DNA from: Paramesorhizobium deserti
GTDB lineage: Bacteria; Pseudomonadota; Alphaproteobacteria; Rhizobiales; Rhizobiaceae
Reading direction: 5' to 3'
Assembly: GCF_001558695.1 (NCBI RefSeq)
Contig: NZ_LNTU01000012.1
Location: forward strand, 310,001 to 374,000
DNA: 64,000 nucleotides
The translations under genes were made by a program, and so were the position numbers. Shown here piece after piece: positions 59,222 to 63,799 of this stretch (position 1 is its first letter; the number at the start of each line of letters is the position of its first letter). Under the pieces are notes generated by a model. The model had not been told where the DNA came from. It saw only the letters and a program-made list of their open reading frames with translations, and ran no database searches.

Positions 59222-60319
59222 ATGAAGCATTTATCGCTTCTCCGAACGATGTTTTTGAGCCTCGCGGTGCCATTTGCGGCAGCAATACCCGCCGCCGGGG
59301 CCGAGATGCGCATCGGCGTTGCGGCACCGCTCACTGGTCCCTTCGCGCTTCTGGGCCAACAACTGACCGATGGCGCGCATCTGGCGACGACAACGGCGCC
59401 TACCGGGGAGGCAACCACCCCTATCATCATCGACGACAAATGCTCGGCCGAGGGCGGGGCCGAAGCGGCGGAGACATTCATCAAGGCGGGCGTGCGGATC
59501 GTCACCGGTTTTCTGTGCACCGAGGCGCTGGAGGCGGCCCTGCCGCTCTTGGGCGAGAAGAACATTCCCGTGGTCACACCGGCCATCCGCGAGGCGGGTC
59601 TCATCGAAAGGCGGGCGAAGGAGCCCCTGCCCGTCTTCCGCCTTCTCCTTCCAAGGGATCGGGAAGCCGTCGCGGCGGGCGATATTCTCGCGAATTTGTG
59701 GCATGACAAGGCCTTCGCCATCATCGACGACGGCACGATCCGCGGCCGGGAGTTGGCGCATGCCGTCCGCACCCAGATCGAGGAAAAGGGGTTGAAACCG
59801 GTCCTGACCGAGACTTACCGGCCCGGACTGGACAATCAGGGCGCGCTCGTCGCGCTGTTGCGCCGCGCCGGGGCCACAGAGGTCTTCATCGGCGGCGAGC
59901 GCGACGATGCGGCGGCGATCGCCGCTGCCGCTGCCCAGCTCAACTATCCCCTGACGATCGTCGGCGACGAAGCGCTGCGCGCCGCCCCCGGCGCCGTGGA
60001 CCTTGCGCCCGATACATTGATGATCGCCGCGCCGGAAGCCGAAACCCTGCCCGCCGCCGCACCCGCCGTGGCAGCGCTGCGCGCGGCGGAAAGACCCGCC
60101 GAGGGCTATGCCGTGCCGGGATATGCGATGCTGCAGATTGCCATTCAGGCGGCGACGGCGGCGGAGACCGAGAAGCAGCCGGTACTTGCCACGCTGCGCA
60201 CCAAGACATTCGACACAGCGCTCGGCACCATCCGTTTCGACGAAAGCGGCTATCGCAGCGATAATCCCTACCGGCTGTTCCGCTATGACGGCAGCCAATT
60301 CGTCCCCGCGGCGGAGTGA
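59222..60319 (+). CDS. Leucine/amide-type ABC substrate-binding protein (orphan)
   Basis: A 365-residue periplasmic binding protein of the LivJ/AmiC type I fold. The signal peptide is MKHLSLLRTMFLSLAVPFAAAIPAAG, and the mature start MRIGVAAPLTGPFALLGQQLTDGAHLA is typical of the family, as is the C-terminal LGTIRFDESGYRSDNPYRLFRYDGSQF. No permease or ATPase genes are near, so it is an orphan. Its stop overlaps the GTG of the P1-family peptidase (GTGA), which implies a shared job, for example handling amides or peptides. Confidence 0.87.
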   Translation: MKHLSLLRTMFLSLAVPFAAAIPAAGAEMRIGVAAPLTGPFALLGQQLTDGAHLATTTAPTGEATTPIIIDDKCSAEGGAEAAETFIKAGVRIVTGFLCTEALEAALPLLGEKNIPVVTPAIREAGLIERRAKEPLPVFRLLLPRDREAVAAGDILANLWHDKAFAIIDDGTIRGRELAHAVRTQIEEKGLKPVLTETYRPGLDNQGALVALLRRAGATEVFIGGERDDAAAIAAAAAQLNYPLTIVGDEALRAAPGAVDLAPDTLMIAAPEAETLPAAAPAVAALRAAERPAEGYAVPGYAMLQIAIQAATAAETEKQPVLATLRTKTFDTALGTIRFDESGYRSDNPYRLFRYDGSQFVPAAE

Positions 60320-61332
60320 CGGCATTGAAACACGGGCCCCGCAATCTCCTGACCGATGTGGGCGGCCTGCGTGTCGGCAATGCCTTGGATGTGCGCATCA
60401 AGAGCGGCGTCACCGCAATCCTCTGCGATAATCCCGCCACCGCCGCCGTACACGTCATGGGCGGCGCTCCCGGCACCCGCGAGACCGACCTTCTGGAGCC
60501 GCACAACACGGTGGAGGCGGTCAATGCGCTGGTTCTGTCAGGCGGCTCGGCCTTCGGCCTCGATGCCGCCTCCGGCGTGCAGGCGGCGCTGCGCGAGCGG
60601 GGCATCGGCTTCGAGGTCGGCGGATATCGTGTCCCCATCGTGCCCGCCGCCATCCTCTTCGATCTCAGGAATGGCGGGGACAAGGATTGGGGCCGCTATC
60701 CGCCCTATCGCGAGCTCGGCTATCAGGCCGTGGAGAACGCCACGCAGGATTTCGCTATCGGCACGGCGGGCGCGGGCACCGGCGCGCTGGTCAGCGGCCT
60801 GAAGGGCGGGCTCGGCTCCGCCTCGACCGTTCTCGACAATGGCATCACCATCGGCGCGCTCGCCGCCGCCAATGCGATGGGCTCGGTCACAATTGGTCAA
60901 AGCCGGCATTTCTGGGCGGCGCCCTTCGAAATCGGCGCGGAATTCGGCGGCCTCGGCCTGCCGCATCCCCTGCCCGCCGATGCGACCGACATCAGGCTGA
61001 AATTCCGAGACCCCGCGCCGCTCGAAAACACCACCATCGCCGTCATCGCCACCGATGCGATCCTCACCAAGGCGCAGGCAAAACGCCTCGCCACAGCGGC
61101 TCATGACGGCTTCGCCCGCGCCATCTGGCCGGCGCACACGCCGTTTGACGGCGATCTGGTTTTCGCGCTGGCGACGGGGACAGGCGGCGCCGCGCCGCAG
61201 ATCGAGGATTTCATCGATCTCTGCGCCGCAGCCGCCTCCACCATGGCCCGCGCCATCGCCCGCGGCGTCCATGCGGCGCAACCTGCGGAGAATGATCCAT
61301 TTCCGGTCTGGAAAGCGCGTTCCGGGCCGTAA
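60316..61332 (+). CDS. P1-family peptidase (DmpA/NylC-type Ntn hydrolase)
   Basis: A 338-residue enzyme from a GTG at 60316 that overlaps the upstream stop. Family blocks: NLLTDVGGLRVGNALD, VMGGAPGTRETDLLEPHNTVEAVNALVLSGGSAFGLDAASGVQ, ATQDFAIGTAGAGTGALVSGLKGGLGSAS and ENTTIAVIATDAILTKAQAKRLA. In this family the chain cuts itself before a Thr/Ser that becomes the nucleophile; here Asn238-Thr239 in LENTTIAV fits. Likely substrates are N-terminal amino acids of peptides, D-amino-acid amides or oligomeric amides. Confidence 0.9.
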   Translation: MTALKHGPRNLLTDVGGLRVGNALDVRIKSGVTAILCDNPATAAVHVMGGAPGTRETDLLEPHNTVEAVNALVLSGGSAFGLDAASGVQAALRERGIGFEVGGYRVPIVPAAILFDLRNGGDKDWGRYPPYRELGYQAVENATQDFAIGTAGAGTGALVSGLKGGLGSASTVLDNGITIGALAAANAMGSVTIGQSRHFWAAPFEIGAEFGGLGLPHPLPADATDIRLKFRDPAPLENTTIAVIATDAILTKAQAKRLATAAHDGFARAIWPAHTPFDGDLVFALATGTGGAAPQIEDFIDLCAAAASTMARAIARGVHAAQPAENDPFPVWKARSGP

Positions 61333-61470: not shown

Positions 61471-62676
61471 TTAGCGGCTGTCGTCCAATGAAGCACGTTC
61501 CAGATAGTGTGTACTCAGAGCTGCTGCGAGTGCAATCGTCGCAGAGCTCAGCATGACGAGAAGAAGCGTATAACGGGCGTTCTCATCTGTCAGAACGGCG
61601 CCCGCGATCGATGACATCGCGGCGCCACCTGTGACTGCAATCGCGCTCGCCAGACCCGCAGCGCTTCCAGTGAGCTTCGGGCGAACTGAAATCGCGCCTG
61701 CGTTTGCACTCGGCATTGTCAGGCCGTTTGACACTCCAACAAACATGCACGGGCCAAACAGTGCCATTACATGGTCGATTCCCATGAAATGCAGGATCAG
61801 GCCGAGCAGAAGACCGGCGCAGGCGATCACCCGTCCCGCGATCAGCGTGGTGGTCAACTGGAATCGACACGCGAAACGCCCGGAAAGAAAGCTTCCGAAC
61901 ATGAAACCTCCGGTTATCGAGCCCATATAGATGCCGAGCGTCGCCGGAGACAGGTCAAAGGCGGAACTGGCGACGAGAGGTGCGCCGGCCAAAAACGCAT
62001 AGAAAGCGCCGACCGAAAAGGCCATACACAACGCATAGGCCCAGAAACGTCTCGATCCGAGTAATTCAGGATAGGCACGCAATTGCTCGGCAATCGTGTT
62101 CGACGGGCTGCGGTTCGTCTCATGCAGATCGATCCAACATAAGGCAAACACAGCGATCCCGAAGATGGCGAGAAACCAAAAGCTGGCCCGCCACCCGAAC
62201 GCCTCGTCAAGCAGACCGCCAAAGCTCGGGCCAAGCATAGGCGCCACGGCCCACGCCGCCGCGACATAGCCGATCTTGCTGGCAGCCTGTTCCTTGCTGG
62301 CCGTATCCCGAATGACAGCCATCGACACCGCATAGGTCGGCGCAATAACAGCCTGGATCATCCTGCAGGCGAGAAAGGTCCGGACATCAGGGGCAACAAC
62401 ACATCCGATCGTGGCGATCACAAAGACCGCCAGCCCCCAAAGGATCACAGGACGACGCCCAAACCTGTCCGACAGCGGCCCCATCACAATCTGGAGGCAT
62501 GCCGAAGCAGCAGCGTAGACGGCGATCGTAAGCCCGACGACGCCGTAATCCACACCGAACTCCGCTGCCATGTTCGTCAAAGAAGGAAGAAAGATGTTGA
62601 CGGGAAGAATACCGAGCGCCGACAGCAGAATCAGCGTGGATAGGTGTGGAGGGTGTGGTAATTTTGGCATGGCCAT
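61471..62676 (-). CDS. Multidrug efflux MFS transporter, Bcr/CflA family
   Basis: A 401-residue exporter with 12 membrane segments, a Bcr/CflA (DHA1) drug:H+ antiporter. MGPLSDRFGRRPVILWG is the MFS motif A, and MIQAVIAPTYAVSMAVIRDT and GPSFGGLLDEAFGWRASFWFLAIFG are further family blocks. I use the ATG at 62676 (MAMPKLPHPPHLSTLILLS); 62712 and 62670 are alternatives. There is no clear Shine-Dalgarno. A short leader-peptide ORF, a hairpin and an intrinsic terminator lie just upstream (62713-62859), so expression is probably controlled by attenuation. Confidence 0.9.
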   Translation of the reverse strand: MAMPKLPHPPHLSTLILLSALGILPVNIFLPSLTNMAAEFGVDYGVVGLTIAVYAAASACLQIVMGPLSDRFGRRPVILWGLAVFVIATIGCVVAPDVRTFLACRMIQAVIAPTYAVSMAVIRDTASKEQAASKIGYVAAAWAVAPMLGPSFGGLLDEAFGWRASFWFLAIFGIAVFALCWIDLHETNRSPSNTIAEQLRAYPELLGSRRFWAYALCMAFSVGAFYAFLAGAPLVASSAFDLSPATLGIYMGSITGGFMFGSFLSGRFACRFQLTTTLIAGRVIACAGLLLGLILHFMGIDHVMALFGPCMFVGVSNGLTMPSANAGAISVRPKLTGSAAGLASAIAVTGGAAMSSIAGAVLTDENARYTLLLVMLSSATIALAAALSTHYLERASLDDSR

Positions 62677-62712
62677 TGGGGTGAAGTCCCGGGGATGGTG
62701 AATTCTGGGCAT

Positions 62713-62733
62713 AAAAAAAGCCCCGTCCGGGGC
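62713..62733 (-). terminator. Intrinsic terminator (attenuator) before the MFS gene
   Basis: On the minus strand GCCCC, a GGAC loop, GGGGC and then seven T (62719-62713), ending 36 bases before the MFS start at 62676. It follows the leader ORF and would stop transcription before the transporter gene. Confidence 0.88.
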
Positions 62734-62741
62734 CTAAGTAC

Positions 62742-62789
62742 CGCGCATGGGTGCTTCGCCTGGCGGCTATGCCGCCTTGCCCATGCGCG
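62742..62789 (-). promoter_or_regulatory. Long hairpin overlapping the leader-peptide ORF
   Basis: CGCGCATGGG (62789-62780 on the minus strand, codons 12-15 of the leader) pairs perfectly with CCCATGCGCG (62751-62742). It encloses a second hairpin, GGCGGC-ATA-GCCGCC, that spans the leader stop codon. The attenuator terminator begins 9 bases further on. Confidence 0.8.
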
Positions 62790-62823
62790 TTCCTACTACG
62801 ACAAAGATCATTTCAACATTCAT
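62767..62823 (-). CDS. Leader peptide of the MFS exporter gene (18 codons)
   Basis: The ORF MNVEMIFVVVGTRMGKAA ends in TAG inside a hairpin and precedes an intrinsic terminator and the MFS gene. The ATG lies only 7 bases after the -10 element (TAACTA), so the transcript probably begins at or next to the start codon and is leaderless, as known for rhizobial trpL. IFVVV recalls the IFVI and IAVV arrest motifs of macrolide-resistance leader peptides (ErmCL, ErmAL). The role is regulatory by inference. Confidence 0.7.
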   Translation of the reverse strand: MNVEMIFVVVGTRMGKAA

Positions 62824-62830
62824 GGTGAGA

Positions 62831-62859
62831 TAGTTAGAGGGGAATTGACGTGGGGTCAA
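62831..62859 (-). promoter_or_regulatory. Promoter of the leader-peptide/MFS transcript
   Basis: -35 TTGACC (62859-62854), 17-base spacer, -10 TAACTA (62836-62831), then 7 bases to the leader ATG. Confidence 0.65.
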
Positions 62860-63118: not shown

Positions 63119-63799
63119 ATGCCCCGTCCGCTCGTCATTTCGCCATCGATCCTCGCTTCCGATTTCGCGAAGCTCGGCCAGGAAGTCACCGATGTCCTCG
63201 ATGCGGGCGCGGACTGGATTCATATCGATGTCATGGACGGGCATTTCGTGCCGAACATCACCTTCGGCCCGGATGTGGTGAAGGCGATAAGACCGCTCAC
63301 CGAGGCGGTGTTCGACACGCATCTGATGATCGCGCCCTGCGATCCCTATCTCGAAGCCTTCGCCAAGGCGGGCTCCGACATCATCACCGTCCATGCCGAG
63401 GCCGGCCCGCATCTCCACCGCTCATTGCAGACGATCCGCGCGCTCGGCAAGAAGGCCGGCGTCTCGCTCAATCCGGCGACACCGGAGACGGTGCTGGAAT
63501 ATGTGCTTGACGATGTCGACCTGATCCTGGTCATGACGGTCAATCCCGGTTTCGGCGGCCAGAAATTCATCCCGGCCACGCTTGAAAAGATCCGCCGCGT
63601 CAAGGCAATGATCGGCGATCGTCCGATCGATATCGAAGTGGATGGCGGCATCACCGTGGAAACAGCGGCCGACGTCGGCATGGCGGGCGCCAATGCCCTC
63701 GTCGCCGGCTCGGCCATCTACAGGGGCGGTTCGGTCGACGCTTACCGCGCCAGTATCGACGCCATCCGCTCGGCGGCGCTGGGCGTGCGAAAGGGATGA
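63119..63799 (+). CDS. rpe: Ribulose-phosphate 3-epimerase
   Basis: A 226-residue TIM-barrel enzyme that interconverts ribulose-5-phosphate and xylulose-5-phosphate in the pentose phosphate and Calvin pathways. It has [35 protein letters not shown] (metal-ligand His/Asp), [23 protein letters not shown] and [11 protein letters not shown], all family signatures in order. The stop overlaps the ATG of the DUF2259 gene (ATGATG region), suggesting co-transcription. Confidence 0.96.

Follow-up and report, generated by a model that had tools for sequence, protein, structure and literature searches.

The Bcr/CflA transporter gene on the minus strand of a 64,000-nucleotide stretch of the Paramesorhizobium deserti genome (hereafter the window) is preceded by a complete member of the RNA family RF02502, and this leader is likely an ilvIH-type attenuator that controls the major facilitator superfamily (MFS) gene by branched-chain, above all valyl-, tRNA charging. 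The initial annotation had proposed a leaderless leader-peptide attenuator at this place. Its layout, its conservation and the type of the downstream gene stood up to analysis, but the proposal had missed that the RNA belongs to a known, ilvI-linked family.

Identity and distribution of the leader RNA

The match to RF02502 (Atu_C8) spans positions 62703–62821 on the minus strand (cmscan 95.1 bits against a cut-off of 50, E 1.5e-20) and takes in the whole model, 1–122, whose first position falls on the last base of the leader ATG and whose end lies past the terminator. Rfam (Rfam 15) enters the family as a small RNA (sRNA) of Rhizobiales, under a label that mentions neither ilvI nor a leader open reading frame (ORF). 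The window copy agrees with the family over its complete sequence and structure; it differs from the entry in that the latter is labelled an sRNA, while the window copy serves an MFS gene. Nearly all of the fetched members that we read lay upstream of ilvI (acetolactate synthase), and the rest lay upstream of transporters; at L027, only the later part of an ilvI-like frame is visible. The genome of the window holds two copies, one before ilvI (L001), which encodes MKTILIVVRTRVGRMV, and one before the Bcr/CflA MFS gene. Judged by its usual place before ilvI and by the peptide core described below, RF02502 would evidently be the alphaproteobacterial ilvIH attenuator leader, and the window leader would be a second, transporter-linked copy of it. 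RF02502 was detected at E 0.001 or better in 47/61 relatives, 161/297 genomes from the order and 381/394 Rhizobiaceae genomes; above the Rfam cut-off, these counts were 39/61, 49/297 and 374/394. It was absent from all 14 control genomes. At one locus, L187 (G258:C2:18000-23000), about 2.6 kb separate two ilvI-like motifs, and the region has two weak RF02502 matches.

In Caulobacter, ilvIH is reported to be subject to attenuation by ilvL (PMC4117421), and an ilvIH cis-regulatory element is listed for Sinorhizobium meliloti (PMC2573895, citing Vitreschak et al. 2004). The RF02502 members before ilvI are presumably this same element. The window leader shares with ilvIH attenuators a short ORF with branched-chain codons followed by a terminator, and their leader ORF and helices are homologous to its own. 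Unlike them, it precedes an MFS gene and not ilvI, and MFS-linked copies of the RF02502 type (form A) have mostly lost the second Ile/Leu codon. With trp-type attenuators it has in common a leader ORF with regulatory codons ahead of an intrinsic terminator. The initial annotation had pointed to rhizobial trpL, which is a system of the right kind, though ilvIH is more closely related. In the open-licence literature, among the matches listed (titles and starts of abstracts), we found no description of an ilvIH-type leader before an MFS exporter.

Layout of the leader locus

The promoter, the 18-codon ORF, the hairpins and the terminator that had been noticed earlier were all located on the minus strand. 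The –35 element TTGACC (62854–62859) is separated by a 17-nt spacer from the –10 element TAACTA (62831–62836), which was placed by this spacing, and 7 nt lie between TAACTA and the leader ATG. Of 112 related leaders, 109 have TTGAC ahead of the leader ATG, 106 of them at a distance of 35–38 nt; among 56-nt stretches drawn at random from the window, about 3.5% contain TTGAC. The promoter was thus upheld by its conservation in relatives, but it was not listed in a strict promoter scan because TAACTA matches TATAAT poorly. The leader ORF (62767–62823; MNVEMIFVVVGTRMGKAA plus stop) runs from the ATG at 62823–62821 to the TAG at 62769–62767, and its valine codons 8–10 are GTC GTA GTA. Its peptide core is conserved in 115 parsed leaders, and across the family translation appears to start leaderless or nearly so.

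A large hairpin of 10 bp (62742–62789), in which 62789–62780 pair with 62751–62742, was borne out by sequence and fold, with its 5′ arm in leader codons 12–15 as previously read. It encloses a stop-codon hairpin (62762–62776; 62776–62771 paired with 62767–62762), likewise confirmed by the fold, with TAG in and beside the loop. The GC stem with seven T was recovered by a terminator scan as well as by folding, and forms an intrinsic terminator at 62713–62735 (stem 62735–62718, T run to 62713). The fold of the leader RNA had a z-score of –2.87 relative to shuffled sequences, and 0 of 200 shuffles folded as well.

The transporter gene

The downstream gene (61471–62670, minus strand) encodes a Bcr/CflA (DHA1) MFS transporter, as had been proposed: its product passed TIGR00710 (223.2 bits, cut-off 200.9) and matched MFS_1 at E 6e-50. 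The CmlA/FloR model gave 155 bits, under its cut-off of 450. The longest MFS ORF opens at an ATG at 62712 that sits in the post-terminator sequence TTTATGCCC. The N-termini of homologous MFS proteins (MPSPHHGPRLSTLI, MPQLPPGPRLSTLI) align by eye with a start at 62670 (MPKLPHPP...), 42 nt past the T run, and this is the likely start. An ATG 36 nt after the T run (62676), as first suggested, is possible, but the homologues favour 62670 in the same by-eye alignment. Among more distant leader-linked relatives, L173, L175 and L182 reached 172–174 bits with TIGR00710, below the cut-off of 200.9, and L180 had no TIGR00710 match at E 1e-40; the MFS proteins of these four loci are 44–52% identical to that of the window.

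The neighbours in the window are a divergent ribulose-phosphate 3-epimerase gene (63119–63799) and a convergent gene for a peptidase S58 family protein (60316–61332), neither of which is a branched-chain gene. An operon with branched-chain genes was considered and rejected, as the neighbours varied in nine MFS loci and no ilv or leu gene was recognised by eye.

Conservation of the peptide and the helices

The peptide core shared by the relatives reads Ile/Leu-Ile/Leu-Val-Val-Gly-x-Arg. For the four core codons, pN/pS was 0.20 in 112 leaders, whereas the two alternative frames gave 6.3 and 35.8. The leader ORF is real and under coding constraint. For the peptide counts, 7 of 122 leaders were dropped, having no ATG-started ORF of 12–24 codons; by eye, some of these start with GTG.

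The helices were examined in an alignment of 36 leaders that includes MFS-linked copies. Fifteen of 21 base pairs had changed on both sides and 96% of cells were paired, a level reached by 0 of 500 shuffles. When partners were slid by 1–3 columns, 32–53% paired, and this control is the safer one, because kinship among sequences can by itself exceed shuffles. In the large hairpin, nine pairs were counted, with 100% standard pairs and changes on both sides in five; in the stop-codon hairpin and in the terminator stem alike, five of six pairs had changed on both sides and 93% of cells were paired. Comparison of the upstream regions of relatives, which the initial annotation had named as a check, hence found both the peptide and paired changes in the stems conserved.

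Linkage of the leader to a transporter clade

Two RF02502 copies were present in 18 of the 394 Rhizobiaceae genomes, that of the window included, in a scan that scored at most 8 candidates per genome and may therefore have missed second copies. In 11 of the 18, a related MFS gene follows the second copy; in five it is a second acetolactate synthase gene and in one (G559) an ABC transporter gene, and the second copy of one genome (G641) lies at a contig edge. The other ten MFS proteins are 44–80% identical to that of the window over the match, and one of the 11 second copies, in G573, is of a divergent form (form B, see below) scoring 30.5 bits. The five second acetolactate synthase large-subunit genes (L159, L162, L163, L164, L174), each with its own RF02502 leader, carry the motif GYPGAAVLP in place of GYPGGAVLP, and the frames of L162 and L164 end early. 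The leader in G559 (L181, G559:C10:1141-1260; MMRMKTALMVVIGRMGRMV) is followed by an ABC exporter-type gene whose family matches are strong, yet below every NCBIfam cut-off listed.

A protein search found orthologues of the MFS gene in several alphaproteobacterial families and in Burkholderiaceae. In a transporter tree of 76 rows, built by a quick method that placed the long rows L182 and L180 with doubt, a clade of 52 rows (SH-aLRT 92) contained 22 with form A, 21 with form B, three with a TPP riboswitch and six with neither leader nor riboswitch. Eight MFS rows had entered via the RNA search (L042, L043, L173, L175, L176, L180, L182, L186); the 44 clade rows found by protein alone comprised 14 with form A, 21 with form B, three with a TPP riboswitch and six with neither. 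The window's own clade (12 rows, SH-aLRT 100; 10 of the 12 found by protein) had a leader in 12 of 12, nine of form A and three of form B. No leader or riboswitch was found in the 24 other tree rows, mostly paralogues from Rhizobiaceae. Rows dropped from the tree were L068, with almost no upstream sequence, L092 and L093, which were short or partial, and L177, the same locus as L114.

TPP riboswitches (RF00059) lie directly upstream of orthologous MFS genes at L069 (2327–2443), L095 (2306–2422), L102 (1238–1353) and L203 (2315–2431), in two Mesorhizobium species, another Rhizobiaceae genome and the Agrobacterium plasmid pAt2. The three tree rows with this riboswitch form one clade (SH-aLRT 96). 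The riboswitch occupies the same place before the same transporter family as the leader, but it is a metabolite-binding RNA of another Rfam family.

The widespread linkage bears on whether the window copy could be a neutral relic, in which the ilvI leader was copied before the MFS gene by recombination and has no regulatory role. The RNA is present in 381 of 394 family genomes, so that chance copying is conceivable, and six of the 52 transporters in the clade lack both a leader and a riboswitch. The linkage, however, recurs in Stappiaceae, Thalassobaculaceae, Rhodospirillaceae, Kiloniellaceae, Rhizobiaceae, Phyllobacteriaceae and Burkholderiaceae, and the paired changes in the helices come from a set that includes MFS copies.

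Form B and probable transfer between bacteria

Form B shares the GCGCATGG / CCATGCGC arms with form A and encodes peptides such as MKTACFIVVVHRRRVR. Most of the members that we read have an AGGAG-like ribosome-binding site before the ATG, and the terminator follows directly after the large hairpin, with an overlap of about 3 nt. No Rfam match was found at E 0.1 for the form B loci L064–L067, and that of L099 was below the cut-off. When 82 loci were scanned at E 0.05 or better, the form B model (R2, without form A rows) found 24 of 25 form A loci and the form A model (R1, without form B rows) found 12 of 21 form B loci, both models having been built from some of the loci later scanned. Two imperfect cases were counted as form B, namely L070, with the leader about 1.4 kb from the MFS gene, and L084, with no ORF at the model start. 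At L070, in Burkholderia cepacia LK29, the leader lies at 984–1087 and the MFS match begins at 2501, as if there had been an insertion between them.

Form B was also found upstream of ilvI in one alphaproteobacterium (L193, G735). MFS genes of Burkholderia and Paraburkholderia carry form B, and six ilvI loci of Burkholderia, Paraburkholderia and one similar genome showed no match to the form A or the form B model. Five of these six Burkholderia-type genomes have a form B MFS gene, and the MFS gene of G964 is without a leader. Because form B stands before these MFS genes and neither form before these ilvI genes, leader and transporter probably travel together; the simplest account is that both moved jointly into these bacteria. 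The Burkholderia and Paraburkholderia ilvI loci (L196–L201) share a conserved 5′ region of their own (TCTCATTTGAGG ... GGCCCAAGAAGC), about 60–200 nt before the ilvI match, which is unlike the form A and form B leaders and, in L196, has no Rfam match at the gathering score.

Six of 19 plasmid records were examined. In keeping with joint movement, the transporter occurs with form B on Phaeobacter and Roseobacter plasmids typed as conjugative, with form A on a Phyllobacterium plasmid and with a TPP riboswitch on an Agrobacterium plasmid; on the Robbsia and Pseudorhodobacter plasmids it had no leader or riboswitch.

Regulatory codons and the probable signal

The window leader has isoleucine at codon 6 and valine at codons 3 and 8–10, and no leucine. 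In the ilvI leaders, the two codons before Val-Val specify Ile or Leu in 90/93 and 85/93, whereas in the form A MFS leaders they do so in 12/22 and 5/22. This loss was significant at both positions (Fisher p 2e-6 and 2e-10, in a test that ignores kinship), while all 22 form A MFS leaders had retained Val-Val. Among the 402 valine codons of 112 leaders (ilvI and MFS), 333 were GTA or GTG, compared with 34% in 38 window ORFs. One valine tRNA reads both GTA and GTG, and a single valine tRNA is probably what is sensed.

Of the form B peptides, 17 of 23 contain Val-Val, a count that overstates their independence because 14 are near-copies from Burkholderia; in two plasmid peptides, four valines stand consecutively. 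Of the remaining six, L084 was unparsed from the model start, and L064, L065, L066, L099 and L100 combine Ile, Leu and Val but have no Val-Val; three of these, L064, L099 and L100, are members of the window's own clade. Valine tuning is not general across transporter leaders.

These codons lead us to infer that leaders at transporter genes respond to the charging of branched-chain tRNAs, chiefly that of valine. As RF02502 normally stands before ilvI, the sensed signal is most likely the charging of Val (and Ile/Leu) tRNA and not a drug; this suggests that what switches the transporter is scarcity of valine or related amino acids.

Search for the switching structure

The initial annotation had found no mutually exclusive antiterminator, and neither covariation nor folding revealed one here. 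Covariation across 96 leaders (24 near-copies of 120 having been dropped) recovered only the three known helices. When leaders of type A were folded with the ribosome at successive positions, the terminator was formed almost throughout among the nine leaders listed, with exceptions in L002 and L086 without a ribosome and in L051 at two positions. Across 111 leaders, placing the ribosome on the regulatory codons did not hide the 5′ arm of the terminator any better. For the window copy alone, the computed terminator probability was 0.13–0.22 with the ribosome at Val10, and was also low, 0.17–0.54, with the ribosome around the stop codon. In this copy GAAGCACCC competes for the 3′ arm of the terminator when the ribosome covers the 5′ arm of the large hairpin, a pairing that was not shared by L169 in folding. 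In seven form B leaders, the computed terminator probability never fell below 0.54, wherever the ribosome was placed. A further candidate, in which the Val-Val-Gly codons (GGGA/AGGA) would pair with UCCC/UCCU in the terminator, was rejected, since by eye it fails in leaders with Arg codons and in MFS copies with GGCCCC.

With the terminator staying formed in these models and no antiterminator found, the terminator may be constitutive. Since the searches were negative, we infer from homology to ilvIH that stalling would change termination, and in which direction it would do so.

Discussion

In the mechanism that we propose, RNA polymerase would start at or a few bases from the AUG, and a ribosome would engage the leaderless ORF of 18 codons. 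As long as branched-chain tRNAs, and valyl-tRNA in particular, are well charged, the ribosome would pass the tandem valine codons and reach the stop codon; transcription would then end at the terminator, giving a short RNA of about 110 nt. When charged tRNAs are short, the ribosome would stall at codons 6–10, before the large hairpin, and more polymerases would read through into the MFS gene.

The strongest competing explanation, which we nonetheless consider unlikely, is that the RNA acts mainly in trans as an sRNA, perhaps together with its peptide, with a terminator that is almost constitutive and an MFS gene transcribed from another promoter. Rfam files RF02502 as an sRNA gene, the covariation and folding searches yielded no antiterminator, and there is a model for such a role in S. 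meliloti: rnTrpL is reported to be a translated leaderless attenuator sRNA (PMC10117765) and the peTrpL peptide to act on a multidrug operon (PMC7298713). The trpL/rnTrpL system, likened here by description, resembles the window leader in its leaderless leader ORF, in being an attenuator that yields a small RNA and in having a peptide tied to multidrug efflux in trans; it differs in the amino acid and the gene concerned, and in the window the link to an efflux-type gene is in cis. An RNA acting in trans, however, has no need to adjoin the same transporter, yet 11 of the 18 genomes with two copies have the second one ahead of a related MFS gene, and the leader switches between forms A and B inside a single transporter clade but keeps its position. 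Moreover, no promoter was found between the terminator and the MFS gene in the strict scan, which also missed the leader promoter. A trans role of the leader RNA is possible, since the family is described as an sRNA.

Improbable in our view is a drug-sensing leader, in which an antibiotic would stall the ribosome on the nascent peptide and so induce the exporter. The downstream gene is of the Bcr/CflA type, and the window peptide holds IFVV at codons 6–9, which resembles the ErmCL arrest motif; the translation-attenuated cmlA is related. Against this, form A MFS leaders differ in the residues that precede Val-Val (S, A, T, F, M and R among others), the usual gene is ilvI, and the valine codons are shifted to GTA/GTG. 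A macrolide-type arrest motif was set aside because form A keeps only Val-Val. The neutral relic considered above is just as improbable, given the range of families that show the linkage and the intact Val-Val of all 22 form A MFS leaders.

Control by branched-chain tRNA charging does meet an objection of physiology: an exporter induced by valine starvation would be odd, as a valine exporter is unwanted at that time. The MFS protein might instead be an importer, or might export either an intermediate of the pathway (2-oxobutyrate, for example) or a pathway inhibitor. Acetolactate synthase is a TPP enzyme, and one may speculate that the TPP riboswitch in another clade fits a tie to acetolactate synthase. 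A broader and more tentative reading, which we hold to be possible though doubtful, is that the "drug exporter" is a mobile module of acetolactate-synthase and valine homeostasis with its own, mostly valine-directed sensor. It would be switched on when charging or, in another clade, TPP is short, and would move a branched-chain pathway compound or inhibitor, selection having swapped three RNA sensors (form A, form B and the TPP riboswitch) in place.

At ilvI, an Rfam sRNA family of unstated function gains a likely cis role. For many genes labelled as multidrug exporters, neither substrate nor inducer is known. In this case the upstream RNA indicates a physiological signal, namely valine and related amino acids or, in another clade, TPP, and thereby makes the function of the transporter clade testable. 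Control of the MFS gene by an ilvIH-type leader would show an amino-acid attenuator leaving its biosynthetic operon, with its codons retuned, and travelling with a new gene between classes and on conjugative plasmids.
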